The position numbers and the translations under genes are program-made. DNA of 57,839 nt, from the IMG/VR virus record IMGVR_UViG_3300042569_000835, positions 1 through 57,839 of that record. One strand, 5' to 3'. Under the pieces are notes generated by a model that was not told the origin of the DNA, did no database searches, and worked only from the letters and a program-made list of their open reading frames with translations. Numbering within the stretch: position 1 is the first letter of the stretch; each line of letters starts with the position of its first letter. Below are positions 1 to 25,597 of this stretch, one piece after another. The DNA comes from a virus.

Positions 1-3000
1 TCTTGATAATCTAATAAACCAACACCGCCAATGCCGATTGCAATAATTTCAACCACGTCTCCTGTTGCAGGGGCAACATTAAATTCAATTTTATTTTCAA
101 CAAAATCTATAACATAATTAATAGTGCTATCGCCAATGTATTCTTGTTTTATCTTATTAACATACACCATTACAGACGATGCTTCGAAAATAGTTAGACC
201 GATGTCAAATCTAGTCTTAACGCCATCGCCGATAATAACTGTATTTTGTATCGGCGTAGCACCCGGATTGGTTTTGTTGAATACTTTGATACTTAGACTG
301 TCTAGTACTTGACCGGGAACGTTTTCTTCCGGAGCTGGCACTTGATCAGGGCTTACAAATTTTTCTCCGTCAATTACAATTTCTTCAGGAGTTAATCCGG
401 CAGCAGTTACATATGCTCCACCGATGTTCGATAATGATCCTCCACTAATTCGTGTGTCTAGTAGATTTACATCGCTGATTACTACAGATCCATCACTGTC
501 TAATTTTCTAAAGATCAGTGTATCGCCTGAATTAGTACTTAAATATCTATGTATTTCGATTATGTTTGTAGACCCATCACCGATAAAAGTTGGCATTTCT
601 GCATGAGGATTAGTTGCTACACTGGAATCCCAACTTGGTGTATAATTAGGGTCGTCGATCCTAATTGGTCGTTGGTCGCCTAGACGTTTAATATACACTG
701 AAATTGGCTGATTGTTTTCTGGAGTATATGGTAAAACAACAAATGTTGTACTGCCGTCAGCTACATAGTAAAAATCATTACTGGATTCTACACTATCCCA
801 ACTGTCTGTAAACCAAGGAAGCGCATCCCATCCGCCTGTTACATCAAAGGTTGTACCTTGTACTTGTACTCCACCAAAGTCAATGCCTGTCATTAACTGG
901 CTCAAATTATTGCCTTTCATCCCCGAAGTAGGTTGGTAGGATTTTTGTATTCTATCTATGCTATTGAATAATTCAACATTTTTTTCATAATTAATTACAA
1001 TCACATCACCTAAGTTTGGATTAGCAAAAAATTTTAATTTACCTTTTAATAAGTCATAACTATCCACAGTAGAAATATACAAACTAATTTCGTATTCGCT
1101 CGAAATTACTAGTTGATCATTTTTAATTACTGTAATTTTTCCCTTATCTCTAGACGGAGCGTAATTTAGGTCAAATACTGCGCTAAATCCTGTGGCAACA
1201 AAAGTTTGAGAATATTCAAAATTTTCGTAGGTTCCAATCTTGTTTGTTCTGTCAAACTTTATTGTTAAATCAAAAGATCTAACTTTTGTTTCGCCGAGAA
1301 TGGGAACTGCTCGAGCAACGTTAACTGAAGATCCGTTTCCGCCAACTAATGAAATTGTCGGCGTTTGTGTGTACCCGCTGCCTGAAGTAATAACTTTGAT
1401 ACCAGATACTCGTCCGTTGGATATAAATGCCTGAGCAGTGGCTCCTGTTCCGCTGCCGGTAATTAACACCGCTGGGGGTGTACGATAGTCTGCGCCCGCA
1501 TCTGCAACTTCAATTGCTACTATAGAATAGCCGTTGTTATCAAACCAAGACTTCCAAGGATATTCATTAAATCTATTATAGTATTGATTTACTGGTAATA
1601 TTGCACCATCTCTAACAGAATATGCAGGTGGCAGATCAAAATCTGATACTGCTGAATTAGAAGAATCTGTTTTAGTATACCTGCTGGTATATTCCCTAAT
1701 ACTGGTTCTGTAGGGCTTGACTTCTTCAATATAACTTTGGAAACTTTCTAAGTTATCATTTTTATAATTGGCTTTTTGTTCTAGGTCGCCGACATTATGA
1801 ATAGCGTTTAAGAAGCTGGTTTTAAATGCCCAATCAACATAGGGCTGTTCTGAAAACGCATACTTTATTGAAGAGAAGAATAAGTTATTCCACTCAACTC
1901 TTAGATCGTCGACAAATATATTTTCTTTTGCTGCTTGTAGAATTATTCTTAATTCTTTAGTCGGTTGCAGATCATACAATGCTGCATCATACGATCCCAC
2001 ATTATCATAGCCTAAGCTGTTGATTAATCGATTGTAAAGAGTGTCTTTAATCTGTATTGTACCGTTTTGACGGCCAACTAAATTATAGTTGTCTAATAAA
2101 TCGCCGGCGCCTTGGGCAGTTTTTTCTAATACTACCCAACCGCCATTGCCGTATTCTTTGACTCTAATTAGATCGCCTACAGAAAGTTCTAGAGTAGGTT
2201 CTTGATAGATATTATTAATTTCTTTAACAATCTTAGAATTAATAGAATAATCAGAATTCCACCAATCCACAAATTGCCAATAGATTGTTGTATCATATCC
2301 CTGAGATTTACTGCGGTAAAAAATTCTACGTTGCTGATCCCATGCATATACACTCCAGAATCCGAACAATGTAGAATCACTTCTTACTAGTACAGAGAAC
2401 GGTCTTACTTTTATAGTGGCTGTTGTATATTTTCTACCTTTAGAAATTAAATTTATAGAGTTTACTTTACCTTGTGCGTTTAGGGTAATTGTTGCTTTAG
2501 CTCCAAATCCGTCGCCTTGTATCTCTATATAAGGAACTGTTCTATATCCGAATCCGGCATCTTTGATATCGATTGTATCTATTTCACCGTTAATTATATT
2601 TGCGGTAAATTCTGCTTGACGAACTTTTACTGTACCCACTTGATCTAGATCAATAAGAGTGTCTACAGATAAATCGTACTGGTTTAACACCTCGCTTGGA
2701 ATTGGATCAAGTCTGTTAAGATTGCCGAAATCAATTGTATCGGAGAACGGTCTAGTTGTCAGCACAGAATTAATATTGTCAATTGCAATCTTTAATGCTT
2801 TGTCTCTATTAACAAACATGCTCTGTCGAGGCCTAAAACTTAATCCCTGTTGTTTTTTAACTGGTAGTCTAGAATCAGGAACAGCATTACCTGCTTCATC
2901 CGATCCCACTAAACTGTCGATCCATTTCTTTTCTAGGTATTCAGAAGGTAGGCTATCAGCTACGCCGCTAGTCAATAATTGATACTCTCTATGAATCGGT

Positions 3001-6000
3001 GTTAATTGTTTTTTATTTTTAGTGTATTCAACATTTACTAGTGCTGTATCTGTGCCAATGATTGCTGTTAAATTATAGGCTAAAAATTTGTCTGGCCCTA
3101 GTATTCCTACAAACGGAATTCCAGACCCAATTGGGTTATCGATAAAGCCTTCGATCGCTGCTGCCGAAATTCGTCTAATTGAATTATTCGTTGGCAATAT
3201 AGTCTTCGACGAAACCCAATAATAGTATAAAGTACCAGTTTCGAGACCAGTATTGGGATTATATAAAATCTTAGTATTGTATACAGTATTGTCGGCAAAT
3301 TTAGGTTGGCCAGAAATTCCTTCGGCCAATCCTTCTACTGTATCAGCAAGTAGGCTCCACTCCGACGGCAGTAGCACAGACTCTACCCATTCGTAAATAT
3401 CAACCGATGAGCCTTCTGCTTGTCTATTCCAATTTCCTATTCGATAGGCAAAATCACTTTGCTCATAATTTATAAATTTAACGGTGCTTAGATCCCACCA
3501 AATTTTTCCAACATTTTTTTCAAACCAAGGTTGTGATTCGTCAACAACTTGGTCATCTGTTCCAATCATATATATTGCAGGATCATATACTGTTTTAAAA
3601 GAAATTTCTTGTTCAGCAACTCCTAATATTTTTAATTTAAACCCATCAACTATATCTAAGTCTGCAATTTTTCTATTATTAACATTGTCATACAGTTCAA
3701 TATTTTGCAACAACTCAACATCTACTAAAGGTATTTCTTGAGAAATTATGTTAAAACTATTTGTTTCGATTGATTTTTTAAACAGTCTAACCATACCAAC
3801 TGCTACACCTTCTACTTGATATGTAGGGGAGCCTACAACAACAACAGAGCTTGTACAATCAATAGAATAGCCGAACGATTCGCCGGATACCAGATCGGCT
3901 TCTAGTTTCTCAACTAGGAAATAACCTTGATCTTTTCTCTCATATACATAGACCTGTCCCGGAAATCCTCTAGAAGAAGAAAAAGAAGTTCTTCTTCTAT
4001 CAAATGTTGTGCCGTCATTAAAAAATGCTAAGATTGAATATCCAGCATTTTTTGCACCTACAACAATTCGTTCTGTAGAAGGACTGATAGATATGCTAGA
4101 TCCAAAATATTCGTTGGTAAAGTATTCATAACTTTGCAATTTTTGTTTTAATCTAAACTGGGATACCGATGAATCAGCATCGTATTTGAAAACATATGCT
4201 GCACCTTGGTTTTGTTTGTTAATATCTGCTAACGGGCTACTGGCTACAATAGTTGTACCGGAGGCGTCAATATCGATGGCAAACCCGAACTGATCCCCTG
4301 ATCCAATGATTCCAGAATTTGCAGTATCATTGATATCAGATAAAGAGTCAGCTGTAATAGTCTGTGTCAAACTATATAGATTGTTTACATCTCGTTCATA
4401 GATATAAATTTTACCCGTAGACGGCGATGCACTATCTCCTACATTTAACCAAGGTAGTCCTGCATCCGGGTATTGACCAAGACTAGTAATAGTTGATGTT
4501 GTTGCGTCGGTCAATCTATGATAGCCGTTTTGATATTTTACAACATCGCCTTCTGTGTACTCTTGATAGACATTCCAATCTCCTCGATAGTTAGCAAAGT
4601 ATTGACCATCACTATTTGGAGCACCAACAACTAATAGCCGTCCATCGCGGCTCATAGTAAGAGAGAATCCAAATTGATCTCCGTCTTTGACCAACTCAGC
4701 TAACTGAGTAGGGCTTAATAATCCCTCTGCTAGAGTAGAGCCGTCATCGTCTATAGCAATGTTTGTTGGTAGTGAACATTGAGTTGAAATAGGATCTAAT
4801 TTTTTCCAATCATTTGATTCTAAAGATAGAGAACTGCCATCACCTGTATTATCGTATAATGCTTCCCATAAACTACCATTAGACCATACTATTGATCCAG
4901 CGGGATAGATTGACAGCGGAGACGGTTGGTATAAGCCTAGATATTTTGTGTTTTCTAAATGACTCCAAGTGGTTCCGTTAAATTGATAAAGATAAATTCT
5001 TCCTTTGCCGGTACTTGCTCCAATGCTAGGGTCGCATAATGATCCTGGAGCAGATACTGCCATATAATAAGTTGTACCAGAAACTCCAATTGTAATTGCT
5101 GAACCAAATTCTTCATAGGCAGCTTGTCTAGGACTTACAAAACTGTGGGCAATTTCCCACTGTCCCTGATTATACTTGTACAAAGAAATCATTCCTTGAT
5201 CAGTAAATCCGTTGCCCCTGGCTGCGGGATTAGCGTTGACTATAGTTGCTGGTTTCCAGTCTTGACTGTTAAAATTAATAGAACTACCGTCGCCTACATC
5301 TATATTATCAACTGCTTCCCATAGCTTGCCTTGATAAAGTGCTATCTCGCCTGCTAGATAACTTCTAGACGGATTTAATTCACCTTGATAGGCGCTTTTT
5401 ACACCGCTAGCATTTGGAGCACCCACTGCTAACCATTTATAATCTGGACTAACTGCCAGGACTTTGCCGAACGAACCTGCGACCGCAGTTTCAAATCCAT
5501 CCGGTGGTGGCACAATTTGCTTTAGACCAATGACTTCGCCGGAAGTCTTGGTTGTATAAATCATTACATAACCAGATCCTGGAATACCTGTTGCAATTTG
5601 TTTTAGGTTGTCAATGTATACTACCGATGTGCCTGTTCCTATAGGTGTAGTAATTCCATACTCACTTAACTCATAGGTAACATACTGCTTAGTTTTTTCG
5701 ATAACTTCCCAGTGGTCGCTACCGTTGTTATCTATCCATAACTTCGATGAAAGATTTAATAATGCAGCTTGTTGATTATCTAATTCCTGATAGGTCAATT
5801 TTCTTGCAATTGTAAAAATTCCAACAGTTGCCGATGTACTATCTATAATCTCAGGTTCATCGGTGCTTGTGGTAATAACTGTAATTGTTTTGTTTGTAGT
5901 TGCAGTAATTTTAAAGAATCCGGTAAGATTATCAATATACTTTAACCCGACAACATCACCAACTGAAAAATTATGTATTTGGTTTAGAGTTATTTCTACA

Positions 6001-9000
6001 TTGGACTCTGTTTTTACCAAAGACTCTACTCGTAGTGCAACTTCTTGATTATATCGCAATACTGTCCATTCATTATTATAAAAAGTTATCCATATATGAG
6101 CATTTTCATAAACGTCTGCAATGTTTAAATTTACAATATCATCTAGAGTCTTTACAATAAAATCAACATGATTTGTGTTAACGTAGCCTGCAGATCTACT
6201 AGTGCCGTCATAATATGATGTGCGATTTAAATCTGTAGTAAAAGGAGTAGGTGCAGTTGTAAATTTTGAAGAATTAATTCTTAGGTATTGATCCAAGACC
6301 ACTGACGAATTTGTACTGTATGTTAACAATATAGGTTGAGGATTTATTACAAGATCATCTTTTTTGATTTCAAATTCAAATTCATCTATTTGAGTTGTTC
6401 CGCCAAACTCTCCAATTTTAAAAGCCCATTCTTCTTTAAGAACAACACTGTCGTCCTGTGTTCTGCTTAATTTATCAAATACTTTTACAATGGCATTTGC
6501 TGTGCCCTTTTCTCTAATAAAACCTTGATATATTCTAAACTGGCTAATTTCATCTTCTGCAATATTTTGTAGGTATTCTCTTTGTTGATATCCAATTGCA
6601 TGTCTTGCAAGGTCTCGTTGGCTAGATCCCACGCCATCTGTGTTTACTTCGTAGTAATCACTGAACTGATTTATTTTATAATCAAAGTTAGGAATTAACG
6701 ACTTGCTAGGAGTGGAGTCTAGTTTTGACCATGCCGCATCTTGGAATTCTACGGAACCTAATTGATTATATTTGCTTGTCCAATTATAAGACTTATAGGA
6801 TACAATGTCTCCTAATTTATAATCAGTAAACGGTTGCCATACCGCTATGTTTACATTATCAAACAAGAAACCGGGACTGGTATAGTCGCCGTCCCAGTCA
6901 ACAGTACGGAATCCTCTAGCTTTGATACGTTCTTGACGATAGCCTGTTGGTTTGTCATAGATAATATCGTTGAAAACTGTTTTGTCATCAAATACAACCA
7001 CATGCTCTTTAAGAACAAAATGCATTCTTAAAAAATATATACCGTCGGTGGTGTTTGTGGTAGACACTGTGATTTCTTGGAAATCTCTATTCACATTGAT
7101 GAATCTTGGCTGTAGCGGATTTCCGTCGTTTTTCAAAACTTGATAGTCGTAAAAGCTGTCTAGAATGCTATCAGCAACACCTATTGCAAATTTAATTTTT
7201 ATGTAAGTTGCAGAAGGGCTAAGTGTAAGTAAAGAATTTTCGGCCCAGTTATGCTTGGACCAGAACATAAATTCTTTGGCCGAAGTATACCAATCAAACG
7301 ATGTTGAAGAAGCTGTATCATACCCGTCAAATATAAATCCAACAGATTTAAGATATTCTTGATAGCCCAGTAAGAAGTCAACTACCTGCTGTATGCTGTT
7401 TAATATAGAGCCATACGATAGAGTTCTAAGTCTTAGCTTGTTAAAATTTCTTCTTCTAAATGCTTCAACCGCGCCGGTCAGCGGCAACGAAGGTAGCTGT
7501 TTCCATATACTCGAACCGTTTGTGCCTTCTGAAAATTCAGTCGAGCTTGTATGACTGCTAAGACATCTATAAAATTTATCTTTAAATCTGCAAATTACAC
7601 CGTTGCCATAGAATGTGTTTTCAGTCCAATCTAAGAAATTTTCACTTAGACCGCCTACCGAAATTAGAGGATCTGACTGAGAATCAGTTGGCTGGTAATA
7701 GTAAAACAAAGGGGTTGAATTATCGTATCCAGAAATTTTCCAGCCAGCATTAACTTTTTCTAAGATAACTCCACTATAGGCTAAATTAAAAATTGGAGCA
7801 CTGACATTGAAAATAATGTCATAGTTCTCTGGTGGTACAAAAACACTACTAGATGTAGACTTGGGATTTTTGCTATCTAAAATATATTTTTGTTGTTGCT
7901 GATCAACAAATCCAGAAATTCTATTAGATAGTTTTACATTTATATTTGAAACAACGTCTTCTAACTTAAGTGTCGAAGAAGCAGTACTCTTTAAATAGTT
8001 TGTAATGTAAACTACTAATCCCGAAACTGGAGTATCTACAGTATTCTCGTAGACAAAATCACTCAATGTAGAAAATAAATTAGTTTTTAAATTTATTGTC
8101 TGACCTAACTTGTTAGTTGCTATAGAAGATTTATTAAAATTGTCGGTAATAAATTCAAACGGTTTTAACAATGCTAGCGCAGAAATTATTGCAAACGGCC
8201 ACTCCGAGCTCATTCTCCAAGCTGCTTCAACTGGAGCATTATCACCTATTTTAAATGCTCCTTGATTATTAATCAAAGAAAAATTTCCTGCTAGTCCCGA
8301 ACTCAACGGGCTTAATAATTTGCCATCCCCATCTACAGGAATATGACTCATAATCGACGGACGCTTGTATCTATCTCTAATTCCGGCTCGCTCGCCTTGA
8401 CGGATAATACCGTCTCTAAGATCTTCCCAAAGAATCAAGTTATTACTTGTATACGGCGCAGGACCATATTCAGTTTCCCACCATATAGGCATTTCACTAA
8501 AGCCTAACATTTCCCAAGGATGTGTATGGGGACGATCAGTATCGTAGAACCATATATATACTTCCCTCCAATATCCTGGCAGGTTTTGCGTTCCCGTAGG
8601 ATCAACCATATTAGAATAGGTATAGGTAAAACTATTTTCGCTGTCAAAAAATACGTTGTTTACATAATCAATATTTGTTCCAGAAATCCATTTTAAAAAT
8701 TCTGAAGAAACAATTTTGTCCAGTGCTGGTTTTCCATAAAGCGAATTTCCATAATATCCCCCAAGAATACTGTCTATATCAAATACAGACTCGTTATACT
8801 CTTGTTTAATATTGTTATAGATTCGAGTTTCTAATTCTAATAAAACATCGTCTCTAAAATCACCATAGGCAACAGTGATACTTCCGTCGTGTCCTTGAAT
8901 TACTTCTCTTGGTTCAACATAGGTGTCATCGAGAAATTTTCTAGGTTTATATTTTTTGTACAACCCTAACTTGGTCGGAGTAGGTGGAATAAAATTGATA

Positions 9001-12000
9001 GCAGTCGATGCGTATTCTCTAATCTGGATCACATCGCCTTCAACTAAATCGATCAATAGATTAACAAACCCGAATGTAGAATTAAATTCGTAATCTCGAT
9101 TTACCAGTAATTGCTGATCATTAAAATAAACATAAACTGCTCGAGAGCTTAAAGTTTGTAGATCAAACTTTTCTGACAGAGCAAATGTTTTAATTCCTGT
9201 ATCTTCAACTGTATAATTTATGCTGGTGTATGCACCGCTGCCGATCATGTCAGATCCGGCAAACGGTCTACTTACGTCTTGCGTTCTACTAATTTCTTCT
9301 AGAACAGAATCTACAAAATCATTAGCAGTTTGATTGTAAAATATTTCATATGCTAGTGCAATAAAACTATTTTTAAAATCGGTGTATGATTTTTTTGCAT
9401 ACTGAATAGATTTTATAATATTATTTTCTTTATTACACAATAATGCAATAGATAACGGCGCCGGACTAGAATGTTTTAAAAATCTTCTTGTTAATGTTTG
9501 ATATCCACTGATGTCTCGTAGGTTGTTTAATCCTGGAAATATTCCACTAAAGTCTTCAGATAGTTCTAATCCTGTAGATATGTGGTCAGCAGCTTGACCT
9601 AACGTAAATGTTTTTATTTTTTCGTTTAGGGGATTTTTTTCTAATCCCAACGGAATTTCATAATAGCCGGTGTCGGGATCAATATTGGCAAATAGTTTAA
9701 TTGCTACTGTGTCCCCTACTGCAAATTGTGTGTCGAATACAAACGTACCTTCTGTTCTAGTAAAACCTGACCGAACGTGTACACCATTTAGATAAACTAA
9801 TATTTTGCGAATATCACTATCGGCTAACAGATTCCAATCAACCATGGTTGTGGTAATTTCGTTTGTAGGTTCTACAATATCCACACTGTCAATTATTGGC
9901 TGGACATAATTAGAATCTAATGTATTCCATGCATTAGTGAAAGTGTCGTCATTGCTAAACTTTAAATAGCCCGTTGCAATTTCTTTAGAGTAGTTGGCAT
10001 TATCAAGTTTATAAGTAAACGAGTCTGTATCAAGATTAAAGTTAAATTGTATATCACCTACGTTATCTATATTAAGATAACTAACGCTAAACCCTAACTC
10101 AATATCGATTGGGCCGGAACCAATTTTATAGCTTAGAATCGAGGTTCCTACGAAGGAACTAACAGGATATGTTTCAACATCACCGAAGCTAACTTCGTTG
10201 TCATCAAAAAGATCAAACAACGGGGGTTGGTTTACCGAAGTCTTTAGTTGACTCTTAACCCAATCAATTCCATTAAAGTGATACATGACCCCTTTATTCT
10301 TTACACCGCGGCGTATTAATACTCCATCGCCGGCCTGTGTGTCAACATTAGATTCACGAGTTAAACTGATCTGCTTAATATTGTTATGGGTGATAAAATT
10401 TACAATGTAAATTTGATTGTTGGCTAATGTATCAGTATCGTTGGTTATTAAAAGTCTTGCTCCGTTGAATAGATATTCACCATCAACAATATATCCAGTG
10501 CTACCTTCAACGACTGAAAAAACATCGGTAGTAAAATCGTCAACAAAGTCAACTGCGTCTTTGGCTATCGACCCATGATTAAATAACTGTATATTTGATT
10601 TAAATTCAATGATTGGTCTTTTTGCTCGAGATGTTTCTGATGCATCAAAATTAGAATTATTTAGAGTATGGGCATAGTCTAATACTGCGCGATGGCACCA
10701 ACGATTGTATCGGCTCCACGGATTTGAATCGATACTAGATCGATTAATTGTAATATAATCTTTCTTTCCTGGGTATGCGCTTGCATCATCAAACGGTTGA
10801 GTATCAAATCCTCCATTATCAAATAATATCTCAGGAGCAGTATCTGAAAATGTAGTCGATACTATTAGGCTAGCCACATTAGTTAGGGTGATTCTTTCTC
10901 CCACACCTTCAACTATCCACTTGTTATTGTTGATTTTTCCTGAATACTTTTCTGGAAAAACGTTTCCGCCAAAGTAAACAATCATACCATTGCTTAATGT
11001 TATTCCATTGCTGCTGGTATAGTTTGTCTTGCCGATTATTTCTTTTTCAACATCAATTTTTGTATTTTCTTCAACGTTAGTAATAACGATTCTACCAAAT
11101 CTATTTGGATCTGTAAAACTTTGATAATATAATACATCTGGAGCATTTAAGGGAACTTCAAAGGTGATAGTTCCGCTTTCAATTCCAGCATTGGTTAGAC
11201 CTTTTGTATAATTTAACGCAGATGACGATGCTGAGGTAAAATCGACAAATTCCCAATCATCTGTATTTTCGTCAATGGTGCTTCCGTCGCTAGTGGTTAT
11301 ATTAGTTTTTGCCTTCCATAATTTTCCATCAAATACAACTAGTTGGCCGACGGAATATTGAAAGTCGGGATTATATAATAACGTTCCAGTGTCAATAGTA
11401 GTTCTAAACAATAACGGATTTCCTGGAACATTAACTTGGAACTTGTATGTTTGTCCTCTATATAAAGTTAATGTAGGATTGTTTGTTAGGCCGTCGGGAG
11501 TGAAAAGGTAAACGCTACCCACGCCAAGGCCCACTCGATATGTGCTTGTAATATTCTGAGCCTGACCTAGAATCTTAATAGGAGGTGGGCCGTCTGGTAC
11601 CCAATAATATTCTCTATAATTTACAAACTTGTCCCAATCGATGGGAGGGGCCCATGTATAGTGTTCTTGAGCTGTAATTAGATCGTCTCGCTCTTCAGTG
11701 TTATTAAAAAACTTTAATTGATTTTTAAAGTCGAGATAATCGTAAAACTGTTCAATCTTGCCATCTTTTTCTACAACAACACCAGGTTCTAATTGATATC
11801 TACTGCGTAAAGTTTGATCTGTGTCTAGGTAAACTTCACTAGATTTGTAGGTTTTACCATATCGTCTACCTAGATATCCTACTTTTTTTTCTAAGACACC
11901 CGGTTGAACTAACGGGTCTAGTGCTCCTGCAAGAAATTTTGAGTTTGCTTCAGTTTGAAAAATCTGAGGCAAAAGATCTATTGTCTTTCTTATAGGAAGT

Positions 12001-12029
12001 TGACTATCTGGAAAAAATTTATCTGCCAT
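1..12029 (-). CDS. Giant virion structural protein downstream of gp6, 3' end outside the window
   Basis: The frame is open from the ATG at 12027-12029 to the left edge, so at least 4,009 residues are visible and the C-terminus is missing. The start reads MADKFFPDSQLPIRKT and lies two bases after the gp6 stop, so translation is probably coupled. Seen in order: an N-terminal domain of about 150 residues; scattered short modules with a W/Y...GD.V.Y.G..W pattern (near residues 200, 1500 and 1720, and within 2170-2740); a block of about six FG-GAP-like repeats (roughly residues 2170-2740, with GDQFGFS and VVGAPNS type motifs); and two G.GY..P.I repeat blocks (about 3140-3200 and 3490-3570). T4 has gp7 (1,032 aa, baseplate wedge) at this position, and giant proteins occupy it in other aquatic T4-like phages. 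A baseplate or tail-fibre structural role is inferred from position and repeats. No catalytic motif was recognised. Confidence 0.8.
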   Translation of the reverse strand, partial: MADKFFPDSQLPIRKTIDLLPQIFQTEANSKFLAGALDPLVQPGVLEKKVGYLGRRYGKTYKSSEVYLDTDQTLRSRYQLEPGVVVEKDGKIEQFYDYLDFKNQLKFFNNTEERDDLITAQEHYTWAPPIDWDKFVNYREYYWVPDGPPPIKILGQAQNITSTYRVGLGVGSVYLFTPDGLTNNPTLTLYRGQTYKFQVNVPGNPLLFRTTIDTGTLLYNPDFQYSVGQLVVFDGKLWKAKTNITTSDGSTIDENTDDWEFVDFTSASSSALNYTKGLTNAGIESGTITFEVPLNAPDVLYYQSFTDPNRFGRIVITNVEENTKIDVEKEIIGKTNYTSSNGITLSNGMIVYFGGNVFPEKYSGKINNNKWIVEGVGERITLTNVASLIVSTTFSDTAPEILFDNGGFDTQPFDDASAYPGKKDYITINRSSIDSNPWSRYNRWCHRAVLDYAHTLNNSNFDASETSRAKRPIIEFKSNIQLFNHGSIAKDAVDFVDDFTTDVFSVVEGSTGYIVDGEYLFNGARLLITNDTDTLANNQIYIVNFITHNNIKQISLTRESNVDTQAGDGVLIRRGVKNKGVMYHFNGIDWVKSQLKTSVNQPPLFDLFDDNEVSFGDVETYPVSSFVGTSILSYKIGSGPIDIELGFSVSYLNIDNVGDIQFNFNLDTDSFTYKLDNANYSKEIATGYLKFSNDDTFTNAWNTLDSNYVQPIIDSVDIVEPTNEITTTMVDWNLLADSDIRKILVYLNGVHVRSGFTRTEGTFVFDTQFAVGDTVAIKLFANIDPDTGYYEIPLGLEKNPLNEKIKTFTLGQAADHISTGLELSEDFSGIFPGLNNLRDISGYQTLTRRFLKHSSPAPLSIALLCNKENNIIKSIQYAKKSYTDFKNSFIALAYEIFYNQTANDFVDSVLEEISRTQDVSRPFAGSDMIGSGAYTSINYTVEDTGIKTFALSEKFDLQTLSSRAVYVYFNDQQLLVNRDYEFNSTFGFVNLLIDLVEGDVIQIREYASTAINFIPPTPTKLGLYKKYKPRKFLDDTYVEPREVIQGHDGSITVAYGDFRDDVLLELETRIYNNIKQEYNESVFDIDSILGGYYGNSLYGKPALDKIVSSEFLKWISGTNIDYVNNVFFDSENSFTYTYSNMVDPTGTQNLPGYWREVYIWFYDTDRPHTHPWEMLGFSEMPIWWETEYGPAPYTSNNLILWEDLRDGIIRQGERAGIRDRYKRPSIMSHIPVDGDGKLLSPLSSGLAGNFSLINNQGAFKIGDNAPVEAAWRMSSEWPFAIISALALLKPFEFITDNFNKSSIATNKLGQTINLKTNLFSTLSDFVYENTVDTPVSGLVVYITNYLKSTASSTLKLEDVVSNINVKLSNRISGFVDQQQQKYILDSKNPKSTSSSVFVPPENYDIIFNVSAPIFNLAYSGVILEKVNAGWKISGYDNSTPLFYYYQPTDSQSDPLISVGGLSENFLDWTENTFYGNGVICRFKDKFYRCLSSHTSSTEFSEGTNGSSIWKQLPSLPLTGAVEAFRRRNFNKLRLRTLSYGSILNSIQQVVDFLLGYQEYLKSVGFIFDGYDTASSTSFDWYTSAKEFMFWSKHNWAENSLLTLSPSATYIKIKFAIGVADSILDSFYDYQVLKNDGNPLQPRFINVNRDFQEITVSTTNTTDGIYFLRMHFVLKEHVVVFDDKTVFNDIIYDKPTGYRQERIKARGFRTVDWDGDYTSPGFLFDNVNIAVWQPFTDYKLGDIVSYKSYNWTSKYNQLGSVEFQDAAWSKLDSTPSKSLIPNFDYKINQFSDYYEVNTDGVGSSQRDLARHAIGYQQREYLQNIAEDEISQFRIYQGFIREKGTANAIVKVFDKLSRTQDDSVVLKEEWAFKIGEFGGTTQIDEFEFEIKKDDLVINPQPILLTYSTNSSVVLDQYLRINSSKFTTAPTPFTTDLNRTSYYDGTSRSAGYVNTNHVDFIVKTLDDIVNLNIADVYENAHIWITFYNNEWTVLRYNQEVALRVESLVKTESNVEITLNQIHNFSVGDVVGLKYIDNLTGFFKITATTNKTITVITTSTDEPEIIDSTSATVGIFTIARKLTYQELDNQQAALLNLSSKLWIDNNGSDHWEVIEKTKQYVTYELSEYGITTPIGTGTSVVYIDNLKQIATGIPGSGYVMIYTTKTSGEVIGLKQIVPPPDGFETAVAGSFGKVLAVSPDYKWLAVGAPNASGVKSAYQGELNPSRSYLAGEIALYQGKLWEAVDNIDVGDGSSINFNSQDWKPATIVNANPAARGNGFTDQGMISLYKYNQGQWEIAHSFVSPRQAAYEEFGSAITIGVSGTTYYMAVSAPGSLCDPSIGASTGKGRIYLYQFNGTTWSHLENTKYLGLYQPSPLSIYPAGSIVWSNGSLWEALYDNTGDGSSLSLESNDWKKLDPISTQCSLPTNIAIDDDGSTLAEGLLSPTQLAELVKDGDQFGFSLTMSRDGRLLVVGAPNSDGQYFANYRGDWNVYQEYTEGDVVKYQNGYHRLTDATTSTITSLGQYPDAGLPWLNVGDSASPSTGKIYIYERDVNNLYSLTQTITADSLSDINDTANSGIIGSGDQFGFAIDIDASGTTIVASSPLADINKQNQGAAYVFKYDADSSVSQFRLKQKLQSYEYFTNEYFGSSISISPSTERIVVGAKNAGYSILAFFNDGTTFDRRRTSFSSSRGFPGQVYVYERKDQGYFLVEKLEADLVSGESFGYSIDCTSSVVVVGSPTYQVEGVAVGMVRLFKKSIETNSFNIISQEIPLVDVELLQNIELYDNVNNRKIADLDIVDGFKLKILGVAEQEISFKTVYDPAIYMIGTDDQVVDESQPWFEKNVGKIWWDLSTVKFINYEQSDFAYRIGNWNRQAEGSSVDIYEWVESVLLPSEWSLLADTVEGLAEGISGQPKFADNTVYNTKILYNPNTGLETGTLYYYWVSSKTILPTNNSIRRISAAAIEGFIDNPIGSGIPFVGILGPDKFLAYNLTAIIGTDTALVNVEYTKNKKQLTPIHREYQLLTSGVADSLPSEYLEKKWIDSLVGSDEAGNAVPDSRLPVKKQQGLSFRPRQSMFVNRDKALKIAIDNINSVLTTRPFSDTIDFGNLNRLDPIPSEVLNQYDLSVDTLIDLDQVGTVKVRQAEFTANIINGEIDTIDIKDAGFGYRTVPYIEIQGDGFGAKATITLNAQGKVNSINLISKGRKYTTATIKVRPFSVLVRSDSTLFGFWSVYAWDQQRRIFYRSKSQGYDTTIYWQFVDWWNSDYSINSKIVKEINNIYQEPTLELSVGDLIRVKEYGNGGWVVLEKTAQGAGDLLDNYNLVGRQNGTIQIKDTLYNRLINSLGYDNVGSYDAALYDLQPTKELRIILQAAKENIFVDDLRVEWNNLFFSSIKYAFSEQPYVDWAFKTSFLNAIHNVGDLEQKANYKNDNLESFQSYIEEVKPYRTSIREYTSRYTKTDSSNSAVSDFDLPPAYSVRDGAILPVNQYYNRFNEYPWKSWFDNNGYSIVAIEVADAGADYRTPPAVLITGSGTGATAQAFISNGRVSGIKVITSGSGYTQTPTISLVGGNGSSVNVARAVPILGETKVRSFDLTIKFDRTNKIGTYENFEYSQTFVATGFSAVFDLNYAPSRDKGKITVIKNDQLVISSEYEISLYISTVDSYDLLKGKLKFFANPNLGDVIVINYEKNVELFNSIDRIQKSYQPTSGMKGNNLSQLMTGIDFGGVQVQGTTFDVTGGWDALPWFTDSWDSVESSNDFYYVADGSTTFVVLPYTPENNQPISVYIKRLGDQRPIRIDDPNYTPSWDSSVATNPHAEMPTFIGDGSTNIIEIHRYLSTNSGDTLIFRKLDSDGSVVISDVNLLDTRISGGSLSNIGGAYVTAAGLTPEEIVIDGEKFVSPDQVPAPEENVPGQVLDSLSIKVFNKTNPGATPIQNTVIIGDGVKTRFDIGLTIFEASSVMVYVNKIKQEYIGDSTINYVIDFVENKIEFNVAPATGDVVEIIAIGIGGVGLLDYQ

Positions 12030-15475: not shown

Positions 15476-15910
15476 TCAGTTTATAATTTTATTTTCTTTA
15501 TCAAAGTCAAATGCCATTCTTTCATTAATGGCAAAAGGCAAATATGTAATATCAGCTTCTATTCTGATACCCATATCTGTAGAATCAATTACTACTCCGT
15601 TGATGGCTATTCTAGGATCATAGTTAATGATCTGTTCAACATCCTCTGTAATTAATTTTTTAACTTCCTCAGTGAACGGTTCAAAAAGCAAATCCCAAAT
15701 TACTGTTCCAAAATCTGGGTTTTCTAATTTTTCCCCTTTTCTAATATAAAAATGATTAATAATATCCTGTTTTACTAAATCAATGTCGTATAATTTAAAT
15801 CCATTTTTAGATTCTTGAGAACTAAATCCCTTGTAGGTAAATGCGATTTGACTGTCAGCAACGCTGGCATTGAGTGATGCTACAGACTTTTGATTGTATA
15901 ATTTTGCCAT
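15476..15910 (-). CDS. gp25: Baseplate wedge subunit, gp25-like (sheath initiator)
   Basis: A protein of 144 residues, close to T4 gp25 (132). It belongs to the GPW/gp25 family, which initiates sheath assembly at the baseplate and bridges to gp6. Visible family features: a middle segment HFYIRKGEKLENPDFGT (about residues 52-68), the following LLFEPFTEE and the Y.PRI motif in LINYDPRIAI style near residue 95. The start has a good ribosome site (AAGGA, seven bases before the ATG). It lies eight bases after the spike gene and before gp6. The old name 'gp25 lysozyme' is not supported by visible catalytic residues. Confidence 0.88.
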   Translation of the reverse strand: MAKLYNQKSVASLNASVADSQIAFTYKGFSSQESKNGFKLYDIDLVKQDIINHFYIRKGEKLENPDFGTVIWDLLFEPFTEEVKKLITEDVEQIINYDPRIAINGVVIDSTDMGIRIEADITYLPFAINERMAFDFDKENKIIN

Positions 15911-15918
15911 TGTATTCC

Positions 15919-17478
15919 TTATGTGTCTCGATCAGTATTTGTAGGTTTTAATACCGTGGGAGCAAAATTTTCATGTAATGACCACGGTTCGTGCATTGGT
16001 ATTCTTTTCATAATACTTTTTGTAGTACCTGCTTGATATCGTTTTTTATTGCCCCACCCGCTGCCTGTACTAGTTACAGGGTTAGCATGTGTGCTCAACG
16101 GTGATGCAGGGGTTGCAGGAGTTGCAGGGGTTGCAGGGGGACCGTTCATGTGAATTTTGCTGGCAGATTCTATATGTTGACCGCCGCTACTGATGTTGGT
16201 ATTGGCTCCTGCTGTAAAATTATTTGCACTACCGGAATTAATATCTGTTGATCCACTAGTAGACAATTTAGTACCCGAAGCCGATATCAAGTCAAATCCT
16301 GCACCTATTGTAATTTTTCCGTCTGCACCTGCAATTAGATTAAAATTGCTGGCGGCTTCTAATTGCATTTTCCCGCCAGCTGCTTTTATATTGACATTTC
16401 GGCCTGCTTCAAAATTAATATCTCTGTCGGCTCTAAAATTTAAATCGTTTTCGGTGTGGATAGAAATACTATCCTGTGCATAGATATCAATTTTACCGTT
16501 AGACGTTAATTCTACCCAGCTGGTACCGCGAGCATTACCAATATAAATTAAATCTTCTGAATTATGTAATAATATCTGATGGCCTGTTCGAGTTCTAAGC
16601 CTTACATATTCGTTATACGGAACATCGGGATTTCCCTTTTCATTTTTTAACGTGTCTACATATTTTACAGGGCCTGTTCCGGCTGTAGTTGCTCTTTGAA
16701 ATTGATCATCACCATCATCAAACACTAACTGTGATCCGCCTAGTCTACTAACGGGCACTGCTGATGGACTTTGAGCTTGTCGCTTTCCGATAAATTGTTT
16801 TTTTGCGTTTGGTCCTCGATCAAAGGGCCCGGGGGTAGAAATACCAAAAACTGTGTTTGGTATACTTCTTCTGGTTGTACTGGTAGTGGTTCCTCGTACA
16901 TCATCTTCTAACAATCCCTGTTCTAAAAACCTATCTGCGATAGGATGTACCGGGCGTTTTATCTTTTCTATTTCTAATTTTTTATCTAGTTCGTTTGTTT
17001 TTCTGTTAATTTCTGCTACAGGCAAAGGCGAAGTAGTATCATATTTCTTTTTTTGTTCTTCGGTTAATTCTACTGATGTTGATCCACCAATAGCCGGAAT
17101 CATGTGATTCATAAATCTACTGGGCACACAGGCAAACCAATAGCCTTCAGATGTATTACCATTAACAAATGCGCACAATACTGTGGATCCAATCTCTGGG
17201 GTTGGAAACCACATGCCATAACTTTTTTGGGTATCGTTAAAATCTGTTTTATTCAACCCCATATTTTCATATCCAGTAACACCATAAAAGGGACTGGCAT
17301 ATTTTACAGTGTATGTTTGACCTAGATCCCCAATCGTGTTGCCGTTATCTCTTTGAAGTGTAACTTCTAATCCGCACATAAATGACGGATCTAAGTATCC
17401 TACTACTTTGGCCAACATTAATCCAGTATCTAGTTTACTAGAATTAACATCGACCGGCGTCCGTTTTTCTATTGACAT
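15919..17478 (-). CDS. gp5: Baseplate central spike, gp5-like
   Basis: A protein of 519 residues that should form the trimeric membrane-piercing spike under the tail tube. The N-terminal OB-fold region (about residues 15-130) shows the family pattern: LDTGLMLAKVVG, a Y.V.YASPFYG segment and MWFPTPEIGSTVLCAFVNG. The middle holds a conserved stretch in which residues 290-310 read as a TRTGHQILLHNSED block. From about residue 330 to 440 there is a repetitive beta-helix needle (alternating polar/hydrophobic IDIYAQ, ISIHTEND, FRADRDINFEAGRN, NVNIKAAGG). This part resembles the VgrG and gp5 C-terminal prism. The Pro/Ala-rich tail after residue 440 contains repeated PATPA. I see no clear T4-lysozyme domain between OB fold and needle, so this is a spike without the lysozyme insert. 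Confidence 0.85.
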   Translation of the reverse strand: MSIEKRTPVDVNSSKLDTGLMLAKVVGYLDPSFMCGLEVTLQRDNGNTIGDLGQTYTVKYASPFYGVTGYENMGLNKTDFNDTQKSYGMWFPTPEIGSTVLCAFVNGNTSEGYWFACVPSRFMNHMIPAIGGSTSVELTEEQKKKYDTTSPLPVAEINRKTNELDKKLEIEKIKRPVHPIADRFLEQGLLEDDVRGTTTSTTRRSIPNTVFGISTPGPFDRGPNAKKQFIGKRQAQSPSAVPVSRLGGSQLVFDDGDDQFQRATTAGTGPVKYVDTLKNEKGNPDVPYNEYVRLRTRTGHQILLHNSEDLIYIGNARGTSWVELTSNGKIDIYAQDSISIHTENDLNFRADRDINFEAGRNVNIKAAGGKMQLEAASNFNLIAGADGKITIGAGFDLISASGTKLSTSGSTDINSGSANNFTAGANTNISSGGQHIESASKIHMNGPPATPATPATPASPLSTHANPVTSTGSGWGNKKRYQAGTTKSIMKRIPMHEPWSLHENFAPTVLKPTNTDRDT

Positions 17479-17518: not shown

Positions 17519-20131
17519 TTATAAACCCGATCGAGTAAACTCACGAGACAACGCAGCGGCGCCTACATTATTGCCAACAGTTGCTGATATATTTTGTGCT
17601 TGCTCTTCGCTTTGTCCTGCGGCGCGGGCCTGTAGATAAGCAGCTACTCTAGCTTCTTGTTGCTCTGCTCTAATATTAATGTTGATGGTTCTACCGGTGC
17701 CTGGTTCCGAAGGTGTGCTAGCAGAACTAGGTGCCGGTGCTCCTAGTGGGTCTTCGTCCATTGGATCAGAGTAATCAACTACACTGGTTCTTGGACGCTC
17801 TTCAAGTGAAGTATTGTATAGCATCTGTGTTTGCTTATTAACTGTTTCAGACCCGTCAATGAAGTCGTTTGATTGCCCTTGCAATCTCATCAACTCAAGA
17901 GTCTGCTGGAATGTTCCGCCTGAGAATTTACTGTTAACATATTGAACTTTATAGATTCCGCTAAACGGACTTACCCATTCCCCTTTAGGAAAATTGTATA
18001 GGCCGCCCCTTCCTGCTGTACCTAAATTTGGCTCAACTGGACTTCTCCAAGATATGTAAACAAAAATTTCGCTGCCTTCCCAATTCATAGATGAGTCTGC
18101 ATTAACTTGCTTGTTGGGTCCTTTCTCAGCAAAGTGATTGGAATTTAGTCCGCTGTCAGAAATAAAATATGGATCTCCTAAAATATCTATATTAACGTTG
18201 GCTAAATCTTTTGATCCAGATTGCAGAAATGCATGGTTAAATGCATCTGCAATTACTTGTTCAACTGTTTTATCACCAGAAGCCGTACCAGTAGGAATAT
18301 TATAATCAGGTTTAAGAGATGCGCCGCCTGAGGTCGCCGATACACCGCTAGCAGCTTCACCTGATTGCACTACTGCTTGATTTCTTTTCTCATCCGTGCC
18401 AGCATTAAGATCTTTGTTTGCAATAGTAGCATTGTTGTTTGGAGCGGTGGGCATCTGGCCTTGATACCATAGAGAGTTAAATTGAATATCAAATTTTAAC
18501 AGATCGTTGTTGGTACCAGTATAGATATAATCATATCTTTTGGCGATAACTTTATTTAATTTCGCATGACCGTCTGGAGCGGCATTAGGATTTTTAAATA
18601 CTCCTGCATTAACGTCATATGGCACTATCCTATAAACATATTTTTTAGCACGAACGTTTCGTTTGCTATCATAGTCTAATAATTGTATTTGACAATCTAG
18701 TCGATACCATTCAACAAATCCGTCAACAATAGCTTCGGGTTTGATTGCATTTTCTGCAAATTTAGAACTGAGAATAATTCTATGAATAACTTGACTTATT
18801 TTCTCACCTTGTGGAAAAGTAAAGAGTCTAAGATTAGTATCGATGGACATTTTTTCTTTATCTACCTTTTGACCCTTTTCGTCCACGACGTCGCTTTCAT
18901 ATTTAAAAACATAGTTTCCGCCAGACGTTGCATCAAATCCCATAGTGTTTTTATCAGCGCCAATTGGACCTGAACCAAAGTCGAGCTGTAGCTCATCTGA
19001 TGTATCGCCGATTTTCTTTGCTGTTTGTTTGTTAGGATCTGCTGTTGCTCGCAATACATCAGTAGATGAAGTAGATTGATCTACTCCAACAGGGTCTGAT
19101 GCATCGAGAGGAAACACAATTTGATAAACATCTGCTACTTCCTGTTGACCGTTTTTTACTGCTAATTGTTGTATTCTATTCAGTGCATTACACAAACTTC
19201 TCGACCCAGAAGATAAAATACTTTTGCAAGTTTCGCCGGTAATCGAAATTTCATTAGGTAATATATTAACTAAATCACTAAAACCAGAGTAATGTAACGG
19301 CATAGCTGTTATGTTATATCTGCTTCCGCCTTCGTCAACTTTAAACTCTACCTTGTTAATTCTAATTGTAAAAAATTTAGTTAGAGTTTTTGTTGATCCA
19401 AAAATAGCACCATTGTCTTTCATGCCTTTAAATTCTAACATTAACAAATAGGGAGTAACTTCTAGATAACTAGGATATCCGGCATTTACTGCTGCTACTT
19501 TTAAACTTTGCAAAAACAGACCCATTGAGTAAGGTTCGTATACATCAAAAGTAAAGTTAAAATTATTTGTGTTTCCGTCTTTTGCACCAGGGGCCACGTT
19601 GTGTTTCATTTGAACGTTATCAATAAAATATTCTGGCTTGCCATTTGTAGTATTTGTTCGCTGAGCATCGTATCTACCTGCAGACGATAAAATAACATTT
19701 CGTAATCCTGCAGGATTATTTCTATATGACTGAGGATTATTAAATTCGCTTGGTTCTAAACAGGACAATGTCCACACTGGTGAATAAGTGGCAAATTGTT
19801 CTAATACATTTTCATAAGGCGGTCCGCCGGGTGGGCGAATGAAAGTCATGGCAATTGGGGCAATTTTTGTAGGATCTGGTTCCCAGGACTGGCCTTTATC
19901 TGTAAGGATTGTTGCTCCACTAGTAAATGCTTTGGTAATCTGTCTAGCAGAACCAGTTACTATATTTGCTGTAGCTGATGCTATTTGTAATATAGGATTA
20001 CCATCAGGTTTTAAAAAATTGCTAGCCGTTTGGCCGATGTCTCTAGTATTTGTAGAAGTTGTCTGCGTATAGGCTGATCCTAATCTTGCATATTTTTCTA
20101 GGGGAGTTTCGCCTGAGCCAAAAATCGACAT
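17519..20131 (-). CDS. Baseplate hub protein, possibly gp27-like
   Basis: A protein of 870 residues between gp53 and the spike gene. In T4 and other contractile phages the spike gene's partner is the hub (gp27 or late-control-D fold), so position suggests a hub role. No diagnostic motif was recognised with certainty. Residues 90-290 contain aromatic-rich beta segments (FIRPPGGPPYENVLEQFATYSP, shortened here, then SPVWTLSCL) and a repeated NNFNFTFDVYEPYSMG type region. The C-terminal 150 residues are low in aromatic residues, rich in Ser, Ala and Gln, and look flexible. The start has a strong ribosome site (AGGAG seven bases upstream) and follows the gp53 stop after one base. Similar long proteins occur at this place in other aquatic T4-like phages. 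Assignment to gp27 is inference. Confidence 0.55.
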   Translation of the reverse strand: MSIFGSGETPLEKYARLGSAYTQTTSTNTRDIGQTASNFLKPDGNPILQIASATANIVTGSARQITKAFTSGATILTDKGQSWEPDPTKIAPIAMTFIRPPGGPPYENVLEQFATYSPVWTLSCLEPSEFNNPQSYRNNPAGLRNVILSSAGRYDAQRTNTTNGKPEYFIDNVQMKHNVAPGAKDGNTNNFNFTFDVYEPYSMGLFLQSLKVAAVNAGYPSYLEVTPYLLMLEFKGMKDNGAIFGSTKTLTKFFTIRINKVEFKVDEGGSRYNITAMPLHYSGFSDLVNILPNEISITGETCKSILSSGSRSLCNALNRIQQLAVKNGQQEVADVYQIVFPLDASDPVGVDQSTSSTDVLRATADPNKQTAKKIGDTSDELQLDFGSGPIGADKNTMGFDATSGGNYVFKYESDVVDEKGQKVDKEKMSIDTNLRLFTFPQGEKISQVIHRIILSSKFAENAIKPEAIVDGFVEWYRLDCQIQLLDYDSKRNVRAKKYVYRIVPYDVNAGVFKNPNAAPDGHAKLNKVIAKRYDYIYTGTNNDLLKFDIQFNSLWYQGQMPTAPNNNATIANKDLNAGTDEKRNQAVVQSGEAASGVSATSGGASLKPDYNIPTGTASGDKTVEQVIADAFNHAFLQSGSKDLANVNIDILGDPYFISDSGLNSNHFAEKGPNKQVNADSSMNWEGSEIFVYISWRSPVEPNLGTAGRGGLYNFPKGEWVSPFSGIYKVQYVNSKFSGGTFQQTLELMRLQGQSNDFIDGSETVNKQTQMLYNTSLEERPRTSVVDYSDPMDEDPLGAPAPSSASTPSEPGTGRTININIRAEQQEARVAAYLQARAAGQSEEQAQNISATVGNNVGAAALSREFTRSGL

Positions 20132-20132
20132 A

Positions 20133-20432
20133 TTATACTCCTATGTACTTTTCTAAGTTAGATTTCTTAGGGCAGTATATTGCTGTGCCTGGAGCAAAGT
20201 CATAAATTGGATCTCTTATCACGGTCATGTTTCGTTGAGCAAATACCCACCATAATTTTGGAGTACCGTATAAATCGTATGCCAATAGATCCGGTCTATG
20301 TTTATATTGAGTCTCTATGACGTATTTAAAATCGTCGGCTTCAGCAGGTACCGGCCGAATTGTCAACAATTCTAAATAAAAATTATTTTGTTTTGTGTTG
20401 TAATAGGGCGATAATCGATTATAAGTAGCCAT
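20133..20432 (-). CDS. gp53: Baseplate wedge subunit, gp53-like
   Basis: A protein of 99 residues. In T4, gp53 (196 aa) joins neighbouring wedges and carries a LysM-like fold. The visible core is the gp53 pattern: the N-terminal RLSPYYNT, then HRPDLLAYDLYGTPKLWWVF (about residues 47-66), then RDPIYDFAPGTAIYCP. The Y.Y.RPD.LA...YG...LWWV string is characteristic of gp53 and small baseplate LysM-like proteins. The protein is about half the T4 length and lacks an extended C-terminal part. The ATG overlaps the stop of the upstream gene as TAATG, so it is translationally coupled. Confidence 0.8.
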   Translation of the reverse strand: MATYNRLSPYYNTKQNNFYLELLTIRPVPAEADDFKYVIETQYKHRPDLLAYDLYGTPKLWWVFAQRNMTVIRDPIYDFAPGTAIYCPKKSNLEKYIGV

Positions 20433-21595
20433 TAAATATATCCTTGTCCGCCTACTATCTGTCCGTTGGCGTAGCTTTTGAGATTAAACTGTCTTAATCT
20501 AGTTCTATTATATATTGGAGATACCGTTACTGATATTGTACTCATAACTGGTACCCATGTTGGTGCGCCACCACCAACTGGAGTATATTTGATATAGCTG
20601 ACATCATCTTTAAAGTCTACTGAAAAACTTTTTACAATAACAGGAACATTATTAAAAATTCTTGCACCGTATCCTGTTAAGTTACATATGATAGGCGGGT
20701 TGCCTACGTTTTCTCCTGTACCAAAAAACATCTTGGTTGCGGTTTTTAAAAACGTAGTACCCTCTATCCAATACTGTGCATCTAATTCGCTTTCAACTGA
20801 GAATTCTCCGGAGATTTGAATATCGTCAACTTGACTATTTTTATATGCATAGAACGGCTGAATGTTATGGACGGGGTCTATTTGTGTATAGTTGGCCTTG
20901 GTTGCAACTGTAATATTAGGCAAGTAAGGCCACACAAATCCACCTGTAGCCGACAGTCTAGAAAATGCACTACCGAACAGTCCAAAATTTGCATTTAGTT
21001 TTACTCGCCAGTCGTTGGCAGCACCCGGTTTAAGTTCAACGAAGGAACCCTGCTGACTAAATAACTCTGCGCCACTAGGAAGGTTCTTGCCTCTAGCCAT
21101 ACTTAATAAATTATTAATCATACCTGCTGCCGACGATATTTGTCCAGCAACCTGTGCAAGTCCTCCGCCAAGGCCGCCACTGGCTAATCCTAATTTGTTT
21201 AAACTTGCACCAATAGCTGCTCCGGTATTGCTTATCGACCCTGCTACTCCCCCTAGCTGTCCTGCAATACCACTTAATGTTCCTGTGGCGTTTGATGCTA
21301 GGCTTTGTATTGTGCTACTGACTCCGCCTAAGGCTCCGGTAACTCCGCCTAACGCACCAGTGGTTTGTCCTAATGCACCTTTAGCATCATTTAAAAAAGT
21401 ATTAGCGGATGCTGTCATACCGTTTAGGCCGGTGCCAATTTCACCACTTAGACGGCCAACAGTGGCATCTAGGTTAGATTTTAAAGCGGCAAAATTATCG
21501 CTTTTCAGTGCTCCGCTAGCAGCATCGGCCGCTGCGCTAACTTGTTCCGAGACCGACGAAACTAATTTTGCCAAAGGGTTGATAGATAAGGCCAT
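20432..21595 (-). CDS. Tail-tube cap or initiator-like baseplate protein (gp48/gp54 type)
   Basis: A protein of 387 residues and first gene of the minus-strand baseplate operon. The N-terminal half (about residues 60-165) is a low-complexity Gly/Ala/Leu/Ser segment with many GALGGV and GGVAGS repeats and looks helical or flexible. From about residue 180 a compact beta-rich domain starts (ELKPGAANDWRVKL, then PYLPNITVATKANY), ending in NRTRLRQFNLKSYANGQ. That layout (tube-like domain next to gp53) fits T4 gp48 (364 aa) or gp54, which cap the hub and start tube polymerisation. The identity between gp48 and gp54 cannot be settled by eye. A late promoter motif stands 26 bases before the ATG, and the ribosome site is AAGGA. 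Confidence 0.5.
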   Translation of the reverse strand: MALSINPLAKLVSSVSEQVSAAADAASGALKSDNFAALKSNLDATVGRLSGEIGTGLNGMTASANTFLNDAKGALGQTTGALGGVTGALGGVSSTIQSLASNATGTLSGIAGQLGGVAGSISNTGAAIGASLNKLGLASGGLGGGLAQVAGQISSAAGMINNLLSMARGKNLPSGAELFSQQGSFVELKPGAANDWRVKLNANFGLFGSAFSRLSATGGFVWPYLPNITVATKANYTQIDPVHNIQPFYAYKNSQVDDIQISGEFSVESELDAQYWIEGTTFLKTATKMFFGTGENVGNPPIICNLTGYGARIFNNVPVIVKSFSVDFKDDVSYIKYTPVGGGAPTWVPVMSTISVTVSPIYNRTRLRQFNLKSYANGQIVGGQGYI

Positions 21596-21621
21596 TTTGA
21601 GTGATTATTCCTTGTATACTC

Positions 21622-21629
21622 TATTTATT
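21622..21629 (-). promoter_or_regulatory. Late promoter of the baseplate operon (AATAAATA)
   Basis: The minus strand reads AATAAATA, matching the T4-type late consensus TATAAATA at seven of eight positions. It lies 26 bases before the ATG of the first baseplate gene. With T4 spacing, transcription would start about six bases downstream, leaving a short leader that contains the AAGGA ribosome site. gp55, encoded divergently just across this gap, is the factor expected to read it. Confidence 0.6.
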
Positions 21630-21676
21630 CTTGACAAAATATGCTATTATATTAACTACTGGAGAATTCTATAACA

Positions 21677-22543: not shown

Positions 22544-22584
22544 CCTAGTTGTTGTAAATGTGTTACACTAACTAAGGAGATTTT

Positions 22585-25370: not shown

Positions 25371-25597
25371 CCACAGAAAGCCACGACAAAATGATTGCTG
25401 CTTTTCAGGAATATTTTAAGTGGCAGGAACGATTTGAATACAAAGGCTCTGACGAAGCAGGCATTAAGGCAAGATATTGGCTCAGCGAAATACGCAATGA
25501 AGCCAGTATCAGAAGAGTAGAAATACAGGCAAAGCGTGAAGAACGCAAACAAGCCAGAAAAGGCATGATAGGCAGACCCAAGAAACTAACTAAGTGA
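25367..25597 (+). CDS. Small basic protein between gp46 and the GIY-YIG gene
   Basis: A protein of 76 residues, mostly helical and strongly basic at the C-terminus (EIQAKREERKQARKG, then RPKK). The longest start is a TTG that overlaps the gp46 stop as TTGA; an ATG at 25391 would give 68 residues. The frame ends one base before the next gene, so the small gene is packed tightly into the gp47-gp46 operon. Function is unknown. The charge suggests nucleic-acid or polymerase contact, but this is only inference. Confidence 0.7.
   Translation: MTTESHDKMIAAFQEYFKWQERFEYKGSDEAGIKARYWLSEIRNEASIRRVEIQAKREERKQARKGMIGRPKKLTK

Follow-up and report, generated by a model that had tools for sequence, protein, structure and literature searches.

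A giant protein encoded directly after gp6 in a T4-related jumbo phage: a candidate gp7-position baseplate wedge protein with predicted host-binding domains

Wedge proteins of contractile tails and the analysed locus

In phage T4, the wedge protein gp7 has a length of 1,032 amino acids and its gene follows gp6 and precedes the peripheral baseplate genes. Cyanophage gp7, the 'baseplate wedge initiator' (phrog_2885), is also encoded directly after gp6 and is itself a giant, with 3,884 amino acids in S-CAM9 and 4,446 in P-HM1. P2 gpI, PA0619 of pyocin R2 and XM1 gp17 are far smaller and comprise 176-242 amino acids. In the 242-residue gp7 ortholog XM1 gp17, the tail spikes are held by residues 80-106, a loop between core elements, and by the C-terminus (residues 201-242) (PMC10457771). 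Giant structural proteins in the same place after gp6 are also collected in the family PHROG 10938, which includes PA5oct gp355, RaK2 ORF070, 121Q 582, Atu_ph07 gp180, SCTP-2 140 and a Phosso protein, ranges from 3,313 to 4,555 amino acids and has a CBM5/12 domain in most members. For phage CBB, the published list of T4 homologues names gp6, gp25 and gp53, while gp7 is absent from it (PMC5259590).

The window analysed here (57,839 bases) is a complete virus record. Judged from the surrounding genes, its source is a T4-related jumbo phage, and a relative with a 96% identical major head protein was found on a contig of 353,123 bases. The giant frame lies on the minus strand and immediately follows a gp6 homologue (phrog_10646, E 5e-288; cyanophage-type gp6 family phrog_219, E 2e-18), which is the gp6-gp7 gene order of T4 and the cyanophages (Table 1). 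A late sigma factor, gp47 and gp46 are encoded on the opposite strand, and further genes code for a portal, a prohead protease, the major head protein, a tape-measure-like protein and large tail-fibre proteins. The order gp5-gp25-gp6-giant, together with late sigma factor, gp47 and gp46 on the opposite strand, resembles that of PA5oct and 121Q, and of RaK2 as far as its sequence was fetched.

Additionally, two plus-strand tail-fibre genes were found at 46087-51627 (1,846 amino acids) and 51682-57837 (at least 2,052 amino acids, with the frame running off the right edge); each of them has a match to phrog_9851. Two plus-strand proteins of 489 and 362 amino acids, encoded at 26536-29090 in the region flanked by gp46 and the baseplate hub gene, show no PHROG match. 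In the related contig L026, a 219-amino-acid protein (phrog_11259) is encoded downstream of the giant gene, and four successive proteins of about 580-690 amino acids (18396-25961) have an N-terminal phrog_14394 / phrog_15511 match in common, most of them with tail or tail-fibre matches. Encoded close to the giant gene, this shared N-terminus is possibly a domain through which alternative fibres dock.

Table 1. Features of the giant protein and of neighbouring genes, with positions in the window
Feature	Position	Strand	Basis or remark
Giant protein at the gp7 position, residues 1-4009 of 4578	3-12029	-	last 569 residues outside the window
Conserved N-terminal block, residues 1-180, 'LLPQIFQTE..KF' motif	11490-12029	-	phrog_10938, E 4.5e-22
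CBM5/12-like module, residues 224-263	11241-11360	-	module scan
Block richest in invariant residues, 1000-1300 (GHDGS..RDDV..ELE.RIY, PWEMLGF..P.WW)	8130-9032	-	family comparison
CBM5/12 domain, residues 1468-1503	7521-7628	-	Pfam
'KGT..EEWAFK' block, residues 1800-1880, K1841 and G1842 invariant	6390-6632	-	candidate counterpart of the gp7 / P2 gpI core
Small beta barrel, residues about 1990-2075	5805-6062	-	predicted model, fold search
Integrin-alpha-like seven-bladed FG-GAP propeller, residues 2140-2763	3741-5612	-	Pfam, AlphaFold, fold search
CBM5/12-like modules among the propeller blades, residues 2223-2261, 2374-2412, 2490-2531
Second family-conserved block, residues 2780-3060	2850-3692	-	family comparison
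gp6 homologue, 1133 aa	12032-15433	-	stop codon 2 bases before the ATG of the giant
gp25 homologue (GPW_gp25)	15476-15910	-	profile match
gp5-like baseplate hub protein	15919-17478	-	phrog_13211
Virion structural protein, 870 aa	17519-20131	-	phrog_11190
Small baseplate wedge subunit, gp53-like by position	20133-20432	-	phrog_7145
Prohead protease	37428-38057

The giant frame and its family

The frame starts with an ATG at position 12029 and runs for 4,009 codons without a stop to the window edge. It is truncated by the contig end and not by the choice of the window, because the window is the complete record. At its own base composition a stop-free run of this length has a chance probability of about 10^-133, and the remaining five frames contain 201-461 stops each. 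In the contig L003, all 4,009 residues are identical and are followed by 569 more residues up to a TAA, which gives a full protein of 4,578 amino acids and a gene of 13.7 kb. The original prediction of an open frame of more than 4,009 codons running past the edge, to be checked by extending the contig leftwards, was borne out by this.

Closed giant frames of 4,574-4,926 amino acids were also found in the relatives L004, L006, L007, L014 and L022. Altogether, the longest frame was closed and exceeded 1,500 amino acids in 84 of the 184 fetched loci, mostly with 4.4-5.2 thousand amino acids; for the relatives the genome search gave an open frame with 5,002 amino acids, direct translation 4,577. 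The overall dN/dS of the giant gene is 0.05 (versus L006) and 0.06 (versus L004), and per 500 residues it stays between 0.02 and 0.09 except in the last, short stretch. Since dN/dS is this low along the chain, the length of the giant has been selected and is not accidental. The 12-kb open frame is one real, intact and strongly conserved gene.

An assembly artefact fusing several genes could be suspected, as the gene runs past the contig end and the frame is broken near residues 2350-2400 in L019 and L024, but intact frames in several contigs (100-56% identity) and frames of 3,300-4,500 codons in cultured phages refute it, leaving this explanation a negligible probability. The two breaks themselves (L024 near position 12930, L019 near 11035) are located inside the propeller and adjoin a CBM-like module; they may be assembly errors or real frameshifts.

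By sequence comparison, the giant belongs to PHROG 10938 (phrog_10938, E 0, 1056 bits, in four stretches). With the giant as query, tblastn returned 60-76 phage records, and at least 583 relatives were found in viral contigs. The named relatives comprise 4,449 (Atu_ph07), 4,555 (Phosso), 3,857 (PA5oct), 3,807 (SCTP-2), 3,771 (Vibrio 2.275.O), 3,326 (RaK2), 3,323 (121Q) and 3,313 (XacN1) amino acids, and each of them adjoins a gp6 homologue or, in SCTP-2, a protein of 3,096 amino acids at the gp6 place. PA5oct, Atu_ph07 and Phosso share 29-31% identity with the giant over the longest common stretches. T4 gp7 is four times shorter. However, giants are usual at the gp7 place, because the PHROG 10938 members and cyanophage gp7 are similarly large, and PHROG profiles reach 4,179 and even 6,136 positions, the latter being a cyanophage one. 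The expectation that the gene would be exceptional in size did not hold, and the idea that it must take up a large part of the genome was wrong: 13.7 kb correspond to about 4% of the 353-kb contig of the relative.

The enlargement of gp6, which had also been proposed, is real, with 1,133 amino acids versus 660 in T4. It says nothing specific about a co-adaptation of the wedge at this locus, as gp6 usually has 971-1,319 amino acids in these phages and the enlargement is thus lineage-wide. In Salicola phage SCTP-2 (L034, 4609-13899), the protein at the gp6 place has 3,096 amino acids, and gp6 too may become giant in some phages.

By mass spectrometry, the family was detected in the virions of relatives. 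The record of PA5oct gp355 carries the note 'ESI-MS/MS'. In phAPEC6 virions, gp245 (381.88 kDa) was detected with 17 peptides and 7.6% coverage, beside the baseplate wedge protein gp244 (PMC7247149), and in CBB virions CBB_236 was detected with 21 peptides and 7.72% coverage, beside the gp6 homologue CBB_237 (PMC5259590). Both proteins are placed in the family by size and neighbour and not by sequence; the genome records of 121Q and CBB are matched by the giant as query.

Peptide coverage in these relatives is only 7-8%, and cleavage is therefore compatible with the data. A polyprotein, translated as a single chain and then cut into several virion proteins, would also fit the large size and the prohead protease encoded by the phage. 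Against it, no evidence of cleavage was found, the phAPEC6 and CBB lists give one protein, and conserved blocks are distributed over much of the chain, so that a polyprotein is regarded as improbable.

Relation to gp7 and P2 gpI

We consider it likely, with a probability of roughly two in three, that the product of the frame is the wedge protein at the gp7 position of a T4-related jumbo phage, with predicted host-binding domains built into it. The assignment to the gp7 place in the original prediction is supported by gene order, directly after gp6. Homology to T4 gp7 did not appear as a full-length profile match and is sub-significant at one motif. In hmmscan, the giant showed no match to the gp7 family (T4 gp7, phrog_964, Pfam Gp7_helical and Baseplate_wedge), Tail_P2_I (PF09684) had no Pfam match in the giant or on three relatives, and hhalign of the family against full-length T4 gp7 yielded nothing. 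A PDB sequence search with the whole giant protein returned only a chitinase CBM (E 0.44).

The motif in question is the KGT block. In the family K1841 and G1842 are invariant and are followed by EEWAFK, which resembles the KGT...EWW of P2 gpI. P2 gpI and PA0619 combine an LLP near the N-terminus with a KGT...EW motif, as the giant does, at the level of a sub-significant match; XM1 gp17 is likened to the giant by its published anatomy and not by sequence. The block was compared using a 187-sequence family alignment and background slices; neither this nor a piecewise comparison yielded a significant link. The hhalign matches were all sub-significant: P2 gpI with E 0.007 and a probability of 5% (best of 20 slices), cyanophage gp7 with E 0.03 and T4 gp7 with E 0.18. 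With a combined KGT HMM (P2 gpI, T4 and cyanophage gp7), the best matches of many members, which are not independent of each other, fell on one KGT column, but their scores did not exceed those reached by shuffled and reversed decoys. The cyanophage gp7 core is joined to T4 gp7 at one motif with E 3.5e-8, but to the PHROG 10938 family only with E 0.02-0.03.

Alternatively, the giant could be a peripheral baseplate protein whose gene simply stands at the gp7 locus, either a scaffold without relation to gp7 or the result of a gp7/gp8/gp10-like fusion, and the (gp6)2-gp7 core would be built by another, unrecognised protein. Besides the lack of detectable T4 gp7 homology, this is favoured by the absence of a gp8 homologue on the 353-kb relative, where the gp8 function may be absorbed or replaced, and by repetitive beta modules which are common to other structural families (phrog_438, phrog_460). 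However, that 353-kb relative yielded no other match to gp7, Baseplate_wedge, Tail_P2_I or P2 gpI, the place right after gp6 is kept in all phages examined, and the invariant KG lies in the expected type of motif. A peripheral protein is accordingly considered unlikely.

A further link to cyanophage gp7 was rejected as evidence of orthology. Residues 3502-3593 of the giant share a glycine-rich beta module with it (hhalign E 6e-8), which lies elsewhere in the chain and is found in several families of structural proteins (phrog_438, phrog_460). Self-BLAST of the giant showed no internal repeats.

In the AlphaFold model of residues 1480-2140, a helical core was not resolved, and the KGT region, folded alone, had pLDDT values of mostly 30-55. 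The fold search with this model returned no baseplate wedge protein, an absence that excludes nothing; its list consisted mainly of matches to one beta barrel. The predicted barrel (residues ~1990-2075) resembles those of phage endosialidase tailspikes (Z 7.5-8), a likeness which may reflect only a common arrangement.

Among the gpI-type proteins, a long variant was observed in Klebsiella phage ST16-OXA48phi5.4 (L207, 177-910). Its annotated gene comprises 3,027 bases, more than five times the usual gpI length, which suggests a gpI fused with further domains.

Propeller, CBM5/12-like modules and their possible role

The clade of the window differs from other PHROG 10938 members by a predicted seven-bladed, integrin-alpha-like FG-GAP propeller with CBM5/12-like modules among its blades. 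FG-GAP was identified with Pfam PF14312 (E 1.4e-14, 54.4 bits versus a cut-off of 23), and the propeller contains five to six FG motifs. The AlphaFold model of residues 2140-2780 (pLDDT 80, pTM 0.84) forms a seven-bladed propeller. Its best solved matches are the heads of integrin alpha chains (Foldseek E 5e-12; VIA Z 23.9 over 338 residues, rmsd 2.9, for integrin alpha-L), and a designed seven-bladed propeller was matched with Z 22.6. The integrin alpha-chain head is also seven-bladed, with domains inserted between the blades. The identity to integrin alpha is 16-20% over the aligned residues, and the likeness is one of fold only, the propeller being part of a phage protein here. FG-GAP proteins are already known in phages and other viruses; within a limited literature search, no published description of an FG-GAP propeller inside a gp7-position protein was found.

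The CBM5/12 domain of the giant scores 56.3 bits versus a Pfam cut-off of 26.2 and was matched in seven of nine family members. FG-GAP was matched in two of the nine scanned members, which a motif check identified as the metagenome members L003 and L022. For the CBM5/12-like modules, the seeds were picked by eye from the giant itself, which makes the scores in L003 circular; in L007, L014 and L022 the scores fall at the same places. The propeller-bearing interval (residues 1910-2790) has 880 amino acids here. The corresponding interval is shorter in six of eight cultured relatives, with 143-528, and reaches 1,505-1,512 in Phosso and Atu_ph07; the metagenome relatives range from 647 to 1,561. 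Because its length varies this widely, the interval is a variable site within a conserved backbone. On the basis of the models, the propeller and the sugar-binding-like modules probably help the giant to hold onto the host.

If the giant is the wedge protein, each baseplate would contain six copies, one per wedge. A small helical core would connect each copy to a pair of gp6 chains; it would consist of the N-terminal 'LLP' region, with its candidate core-bundle helices, and of the 'KGT' block around residue 1840. The other ~4,000 residues would project outward as beta-rich modules. Judging by their folds, the propeller and the CBM5/12-like modules could contact glycans or proteins of the host surface and relay this binding to the wedge, so that part of the adhesion apparatus would be built into the wedge protein. 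Provided that the KGT match is genuine, the two growth sites of the giant would be counterparts of the spike-holding loop and the C-terminus of XM1 gp17.

More specifically, a wedge protein may have turned into an adhesin. It would have kept a minimal gp7/gpI core, with ~1,700 residues in one spike-holding loop and ~2,700 extending the other. The propeller and CBM-like modules would stand in for separate gp8/short-fibre parts, and adaptation of the lineage to its hosts would be reflected in the variable module 2140-2763. In this full form the scenario is tentative and rather doubtful.

Dozens of cultured jumbo phages, and viral contigs numbering at least in the hundreds, encode a giant next to gp6, and its annotation goes no further than 'virion structural protein' or 'hypothetical protein'. 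A gp7 identity of the giant would mean that jumbo phages retained the minimal contractile wedge and enlarged it by inserting host-binding modules, and the exchange of modules within a baseplate scaffold would become directly testable.
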